64,000 nt of DNA from Candidatus Vesicomyosocius sp. SY067_SCS001 (GTDB taxonomy: Bacteria > Pseudomonadota > Gammaproteobacteria > PS1 > Pseudothioglobaceae). The notes beneath the pieces were generated by a model. It made no database searches. It was given only the letters and a program-made list of their open reading frames with translations, and was not told the origin of the DNA. Shown in pieces: positions 61,486 to 64,000 of the stretch (position 1 is the first letter of the stretch; the number at the start of each line of letters is the position of its first letter). The position numbers and the translations under genes were made by a program. The stretch lies in NCBI RefSeq assembly GCF_014706615.1, contig NZ_CP054877.1, positions 868,001 to 932,000 of the forward strand. Direction: 5' to 3'.

Positions 61486-61552
61486 TTAATTACTCTAACC
61501 CTTAACTTAAGTAGAGAGAAACGTTCTTAACGAGACAAAAAATTTAAATTCA

Positions 61553-62143
61553 ATACAAGCAAAAAAAAGACTGATTGATGGTAATCAACGTTTTATTGAT
61601 GGCACTACTGTATTGCATCATCAATTACCTCCACATAAACATATAAAGAATATACAAGATCAAGAACCTTTCGCAATTATATTAGGCTGTTCTGATTCAC
61701 GAGTACCTATTGAGACTATCTTTGACCAAAATTTTGGAGATTTATTCATTATTCGTATTGCAGGCAACATAGTAGCACCATCACAAATGGGTAGCGTTGA
61801 GTTTGCAATATCAAAATTTAAAACAGTCTTAATCGTTATACTAGGACATTCTAACTGTGGTGCTATTAACGCAACCATTGATGAATGTATAAATAAAACA
61901 CATTTATCAAGTAGTCTTCACTCTATTACTGATAGAATAAAACCATCAATCTTACCTTTAATTAACTTAGATTTACCCAATCATGAATTAATAAACAGAG
62001 CTGTTAAAGTTAATATTATTAATTCTGTCAAACAATTACAAAGCCAATCAACAGTGATTAAAGAATCTATTAAGAGTAATAAACTAAGGATTATAGGTGC
62101 CAACTATTCTTTAACATCAGGTATGGTTCAGTTCCTGACTTAA
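61553..62143 (+). CDS. Beta-class carbonic anhydrase, start codon not canonical
   Basis: Carbonic anhydrase interconverts CO2 and bicarbonate. Zinc ligands and catalytic pair are present: CSDSR (Cys46, Asp48, Arg50 counted from the ATA) and HSNCGA (His99, Cys102). The C-terminal GANYSLTSGMVQFL matches the family. Homology clearly extends upstream of the first usable TTG (61613): RLIDGNQRFIDG matches the family N-terminus. Between the in-frame stop at 61508 and 61613 there is no ATG, GTG or TTG. I place the start at ATA 61553 tentatively; it may instead be a gene with a lost start codon. Confidence 0.8.
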   Translation: MQAKKRLIDGNQRFIDGTTVLHHQLPPHKHIKNIQDQEPFAIILGCSDSRVPIETIFDQNFGDLFIIRIAGNIVAPSQMGSVEFAISKFKTVLIVILGHSNCGAINATIDECINKTHLSSSLHSITDRIKPSILPLINLDLPNHELINRAVKVNIINSVKQLQSQSTVIKESIKSNKLRIIGANYSLTSGMVQFLT

Positions 62144-62177
62144 TTTTCTTAAGATTTTGTGATTGAAACCAAGTTGT

Positions 62178-62681
62178 TTAAAAATTCTCATCCCAATCAA
62201 CTAAAATAGTTTGATTATTTATATCCACTTGTATTAAAAATGGAGAAATATAAGGCACCCAGTGCTCTTTTACACCTCTAACTATAAGTACACTATTCGA
62301 ACCAGTATCAACTAAATTAAGAACCTTACCAAGAACAATTTGTGTTTTATTAACTACTTCTAAACCAATTAAATCATTCCAGTAGTATTCACCTGCTTTT
62401 AGTCTTAATAATTGTGATTTTTCAATATACAAGTTAGTATCTATATAGACTCTAGCTTGTTCTTTATCAAAAATATCTTTGATTTGTGCTACAATAGTTT
62501 TAGCTTGCACACGACCTTGGGAAATATTTAAAGTTTGCCAATGACTATCGACATTTATATACCACGGTTGATAGGATAAAATATTCACCCTTGGATGAGT
62601 ATGGGAGAAAACTTTAACCCAGCCATTAACACCAAAAAACCCATTAATCTTTCCGATTAATAGCTTTTGATTATTAGATAT
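62178..62681 (-). CDS. rimM: Ribosome maturation factor RimM, probable ATA start
   Basis: RimM helps mature the head of the 30S subunit and binds S19. From the ATA at 62681 the product reads SNNQKLLIGKINGFFGVNGW, a perfect family N-terminus, then ILSYQPWY, the PRC-barrel segment GEYYWNDLIGLEV, TGSNSVLIVRG and a final VDWDENF. The length of 167 residues fits the family. The only canonical start in frame is GTG at 62588, which would delete about 31 conserved residues. AGAG lies a few bases upstream of the ATA. rpsP precedes it, as usual. Confidence 0.85.
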   Translation of the reverse strand: MSNNQKLLIGKINGFFGVNGWVKVFSHTHPRVNILSYQPWYINVDSHWQTLNISQGRVQAKTIVAQIKDIFDKEQARVYIDTNLYIEKSQLLRLKAGEYYWNDLIGLEVVNKTQIVLGKVLNLVDTGSNSVLIVRGVKEHWVPYISPFLIQVDINNQTILVDWDENF

Positions 62682-62738
62682 TAAAGACTCTGAATTACTC
62701 AGCGAGTTCTACTGATTATGCTATTAGTTTAGATAAAA

Positions 62739-63014
62739 TCAAAGATTTTTTGCTAACTTGACAGCAATACCTTGGTCTTTAAACTCTTTGACAAGCCGCT
62801 TAACACGATCTGAAATTTGAGCACCTTTTGATGTCCAATATGCTAACCTAGCTTCTTCGATAATAAGCCTAACTTCTTGTCCATGGGTAACTGGATTAAA
62901 ATATCCAAGTCGCTCAATATAAGAACTATCTCTACGTCTCCTAGAGTCTGTTGCTACAATTGAATAAAAAGGTTTTTTCTTGGCTCCACCACGAGCTAGT
63001 CTAATTTTAACCAT
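62739..63014 (-). CDS. rpsP: 30S ribosomal protein S16
   Basis: S16 is an assembly protein of the small subunit. The 91-residue product begins [20 protein letters not shown] and has [16 protein letters not shown], as expected. It is followed by rimM, the conserved rpsP-rimM order, but the usual trmD and rplS do not follow; a convergent carbonic anhydrase gene lies there instead. Confidence 0.97.
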
Positions 63015-63077
63015 GGTTTTATTCCTAATTTATATCATATAATAATATACTTATACATTACGGCATAAGATTAATTA

Positions 63078-64000
<923 letters not shown>

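Follow-up and report, generated by a model that had tools for sequence, protein, structure and literature searches.

The rimM gene of Candidatus Vesicomyosocius sp. SY067_SCS001 raises the question of which codon opens a reading frame whose N-terminal part offers none of the usual bacterial starts. It lies on the minus strand of the window, by which we mean the whole 64,000-nucleotide stretch analyzed here, and the relevant features are collected in Table 1. Downstream of the rpsP stop the rimM frame runs through TAA, TAG and TAG, and after the last of these it reads AAC TCG CTG AGT AAT TCA GAG TCT TTA ATA TCT AAT AAT CAA AAG CTA TTA ATC GGA AAG and stays open up to its terminal TAA. As the original prediction had stated, no ATG, GTG or TTG occurs in this frame between that last TAG and the GTG at 62588; the near-cognate codons present in the open stretch are CTG at 62702, ATA at 62681, ATC at 62657 and ATT at 62648. 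The original prediction had placed the start at the ATA and missed the CTG, and comparison with related genomes indicates that a CTG start conserved across the clade most likely has to replace it.

Table 1. Features of the rimM locus in the window (positions counted from its first letter)
Feature	Position or sequence	Strand	Basis or remark
rimM	62178..62702	-	174 codons, counted from the proposed CTG and excluding the stop TAA 62180-62178
rimM, proposed N-terminus	fMet-SNSESLISNNQKLLIGKINGFFG	-	translation from CTG 62702-62700
CTG, most likely rimM start codon	62700..62702	-	family conservation; TTG at the homologous codon in G054/L064; kept after rpsP shortening
ATA, start in the original prediction; probably an internal isoleucine codon	62679..62681	-	ATA/TTA/ACA/ATG = 2/2/7/1 among congeners
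TAG, in frame, closes the rimM frame upstream	62709..62711	-	reading frame
GTG, first canonical in-frame start	62586..62588	-	start there loses about 25 conserved residues of the RimM domain
rpsP (S16)	62739..63014	-	stop TGA 62741-62739; ends 36 nt before the rimM CTG; C-terminal tail lost
Shine-Dalgarno remnant AGCATAATCAGTAGAACTCG	62703..62722	-	AGAGGAA at this place in most relatives

Judged by family profiles, the residues encoded upstream of the GTG are part of RimM, as the original prediction had proposed. With them the Pfam RimM model (PF01782) is matched over profile positions 2-84 at 65.7 bits (cut-off 23.5), and without them only over positions 26-84 at 30.5 bits. The TIGR02273 equivalog behaves likewise, scoring 141.5 bits (cut-off 66.2) and falling to 109 bits, with its first 27 positions gone, if the protein is begun at the GTG; across the Pfam and NCBIfam profiles such a start costs the first 25-27 positions. 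Together with a PRC_RimM match (PF24986) of 48.2 bits (cut-off 27), the protein contains both the N-terminal RimM domain and the PRC barrel above the curated cut-offs, the combination that defines membership of this family. Alignments with the three best solved RimM chains begin at residues 12-15 of the CTG-started protein.

Substitution rates indicate that the parts of rimM before and after the GTG are both conserved as protein. Against three sister genomes the values before the GTG are 0.03-0.07 for dN and 0.19-0.27 for dS, and those after it 0.036-0.051 and 0.20-0.22, giving a dN/dS of about 0.2 on either side, as in a gene selected for its protein product rather than a pseudogene. The AT-rich, reduced genome and the eroded Shine-Dalgarno sequence could be taken to suggest that the gene is losing expression, either for want of a working start or by yielding a short protein from the GTG. 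Against this, none of the four sister genomes has an interrupted rimM frame, both parts evolve under the constraint just described, and the short protein would lack about 25 positions at the beginning of the RimM domain. Nor does the want of a canonical start signal decay here, because relatives with larger genomes show it too. We consider loss of expression very improbable; of the two outcomes that the original prediction had envisaged, a non-standard start or decay, it is the former that is favored.

For the choice among the non-standard candidates we collected rimM from relatives, a search at the level of the order yielding members of the same family only, and aligned the codons with codon 0 set at the I/V of the LLIGKING motif, which places the CTG at -15 and the ATA at -8. 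In the genus (12 genomes) codon -8 reads ATA twice (the window and L003), TTA twice (L002 and L004), ACA seven times and ATG once (L007). In the tree the window forms a four-genome clade with L002-L004 and L007 falls outside it, the branching of the other congeners being unresolved. The ATA was originally viewed as a mutated ATG, a derivation that this alignment does not support: because the only genome with ATG lies outside the window's clade, a single C-to-T change from ACA would be a simpler origin. Furthermore, the ATA cannot be a shared solution, since L002 and L004 have TTA in its place and likewise lack a canonical start; the CTG, seven codons farther upstream, is by contrast common to all four genomes of the clade.

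Initiation at the ATA, with the upstream CTG as a relic, would nevertheless draw some support from the identical ATA of L003, from the ATG at this codon in L007, and from a weak Shine-Dalgarno match (AGAGT, -2.4 kcal/mol) 5 nt upstream, which is slightly better than the match before the CTG. In the relatives, however, the matches before codon -8 are weaker or absent, and with TTA in two sisters and ACA in most congeners we regard a start at the ATA as unlikely. L003 is identical to the window at both the ATA and the CTG, and a sequencing error is an unlikely source of bases that an independent sister genome also carries. In L007 (G006), whose rpsP is shortened, an ATG has been gained at codon -8 and CTG AGT AAT is kept upstream of it, with one extra codon between.

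The distribution of the CTG across the family supports its use. An in-frame CTG at codons -13 to -17 is present in 32/32 evaluable genomes that have no ATG, GTG or TTG at codons -14 to -5, compared with 6/34 of those having a canonical start there (L088, L020 and L073 were left out of the counts because of Ns, a contig end or an unusual fusion upstream). The corresponding Fisher p of 4e-13 carries no correction for shared ancestry and, the genomes not being independent, is no more than a rough guide. In the genomes lacking a nearby canonical start the CTG stands at -15 in 28 cases and, as part of the same CTG block, at -17 in three genomes of genus g2. Within g2 the CTG occurs in 3/3 genomes devoid of GTG/TTG and in 0/16 of those possessing one. 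In ten genomes, including the window's clade, not a single canonical codon follows the last in-frame stop until the protein core is reached. In G054 (L064), the remaining one of the 32, where rpsP is shortened, the codon exactly homologous to the CTG is TTG at -15, possibly a reversion to a canonical start, and a further CTG stands at -16. The absence of a canonical start at the N-terminus in several species recalls the situation of infC, as does the presence of one and the same non-AUG codon at one place, the latter being partly confounded by rpsP coding in other genomes.

This confounding effect needs to be considered, as rpsP coding does explain a part of the CTG conservation in the relatives. 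In most of them CTGAGTAA serves twice, spelling the last rpsP codons with their stop (GCT GAG TAA) as well as the proposed rimM start (CTG). It could thus be argued that the CTG is kept solely by the rpsP tail and that rimM begins elsewhere, at a TTG at codon -1, at the near-cognate ATC 62657 or ATT 62648 in the core, or through a frameshift from rpsP. In keeping with this, the S16 reading frame closes with AE* in most genomes, many g4/g6 genomes do have TTG at -1, and in the g3 genomes, which have a GTG at -11 and serve as a control, the CTG inherited from rpsP lies in another frame than rimM and is still kept in 8/10, having turned into CCG in 2/10. Codon -1, however, is TTA in 12/12 congeners. 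In g2 the CTG is confined to genomes without GTG/TTG, its position reading AAA, CTA or TAA in the others. A frameshift fusion of rpsP and rimM is blocked here by the TAA, TAG and TAG in the rimM frame.

The lineages with a shortened rpsP also bear on this alternative. In L001-L004, L011 and L012 rpsP ends earlier, and the CTG block is therefore free of rpsP constraint there, yet the CTG and the codons following it survive. Between the window's clade and the other congeners the 12-nt block CTGAGTAATTCA is identical at 10-12/12 positions, against only 7-14/24 in the 24 nt upstream of it and 55% at fourfold sites, where a C is kept in 45/242 comparisons. This excess of identity suggests that the block itself is under selection, and we consider conservation through the rpsP tail alone to be improbable, marginally more so than a start at the ATA. 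The low-complexity C-terminal tail of rpsP has been lost in the window (62703-62741) and in L002-L004, L007, L011, L012 and L064.

A start at the CTG is also consistent with the initiation signals of the relatives. Most of those with the CTG have AGAGGAA 6-7 nt before it, with a predicted anti-Shine-Dalgarno duplex of -6.0 to -9.1 kcal/mol. In the window lineage this Shine-Dalgarno sequence is eroded, the match before the CTG being weak both in the window (-0.5 kcal/mol) and in its clade (-0.5 to -1.4 kcal/mol). In this clade the rimM Shine-Dalgarno sequence, which lay inside the rpsP tail, was lost along with that tail. The 16S 3' end GGATCACCTCCTT is present in the genome and the initiator tRNA retains the usual GGG/CCC anticodon stem, so no exotic machinery is indicated; neither an unusual initiator tRNA nor an altered anti-Shine-Dalgarno sequence was seen as a possible cause.

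RNA structure offers a less favorable picture. In a 150-nt fold of the window the CUG lies in paired sequence, which counts against its use as a start. Single-sequence folds of L006, L009, L016, L017, L019, L023 and L069 suggest pairing of the Shine-Dalgarno/CUG region with downstream pyrimidines, with z-scores down to -3.0. Over the initiation region, however, covariation did not rise above that of shuffled alignments, no consensus structure was obtained and the window lacked this pairing (z-score +1.2), and a conserved regulatory hairpin around the CUG was accordingly rejected. An Rfam scan of 62100-63100 gave zero matches.

Weighing these lines of comparative evidence, we propose, with a probability of about 0.76, that rimM is functional and has its translation start at the CUG, and that this is an old start common to much of the family. 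The ordinary initiator tRNA would read the CUG, inefficiently, as fMet. Ribosomes translating S16 may, in the ancestor, have been delivered to a Shine-Dalgarno sequence in the tail of rpsP, with the CUG overlapping the S16 stop, and in the extant relatives ribosomes ending S16 would still be positioned at the weak rimM start by the Shine-Dalgarno sequence 6-7 nt upstream. In the window lineage the end of rpsP would then have moved to an earlier position, the tail and the Shine-Dalgarno sequence decaying and the CTG block remaining. A weak start would suit RimM, an assembly factor presumably required in far smaller amounts than the S16 encoded by the same message, and this much lower demand for translation is probably why the CUG has been tolerated or kept.

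A stronger version, which we offer only tentatively and lean against, is that much of the SUP05/clam-symbiont family actively retains the CUG as a brake setting the RimM:S16 ratio of a single message. Consistent with such retention, ATG, GTG and TTG are each one mutation away from CTG, and the CTG persists though C-to-T changes are favored in these AT-rich genomes, even where the rpsP constraint is gone.

Two known systems invite comparison. In infC the AUU start codon lowers expression and is part of an autoregulation via IF3. The rimM genes described here are similar in being genes of the translation apparatus with a conserved weak non-AUG start, which in infC is an expression-lowering one, but they differ from infC, with its AUU and IF3 autoregulation, in having CUG as the proposed codon and rimM as the gene concerned. 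For E. coli infC, encoding IF3, the AUU start is named in titles cited in PMC9845219. The second system is the E. coli rpsP-rimM-trmD-rplS operon, in which rimM likewise comes after rpsP. Both are read from one mRNA there, but translation of rimM is lower by about ten-fold (PMC4378010), mRNA structure keeping it down (PMC5318159). In the present genomes a conserved structure over the rimM initiation region is unsupported, unlike in E. coli, and a CUG start would achieve a similarly low translation of rimM by another route.

CUG itself has been held almost unusable as a bacterial start. Its initiation complexes are less stable than those with AUG, GUG or UUG and it is an inefficient start in E. 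coli (PMC11497404); one E. coli/chloroplast study found zero reporter activity (PMC9845219), and a survey cited there counts CUG starts in 20 ORFs of 69 model genomes, about 0.024% of annotated ORFs. The proposed rimM start shares its codon with these annotated bacterial genes, but differs in that orthologues of a single gene have the CUG in several genera of the family. Within the literature collection searched, nothing relevant on a CUG-started rimM was found. A start conserved to this depth in a ribosome-assembly gene would offer a natural setting in which to examine bacterial initiation on CUG, as well as the possible selection of weak starts for balancing the proteins of one operon. Gene prediction limited to ATG, GTG and TTG would place the rimM start wrongly in these genomes or shorten the gene.

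The gene order around rimM also departs from that of the E. coli operon. Here trmD does not adjoin rimM, and in the relatives checked none was seen within 3 kb on either side of rimM; in this genome it is found far from rimM and outside the window (G000:C1:264208-264795). On its downstream side rimM is adjoined in the window by a convergent carbonic-anhydrase-like gene (61511-62143).
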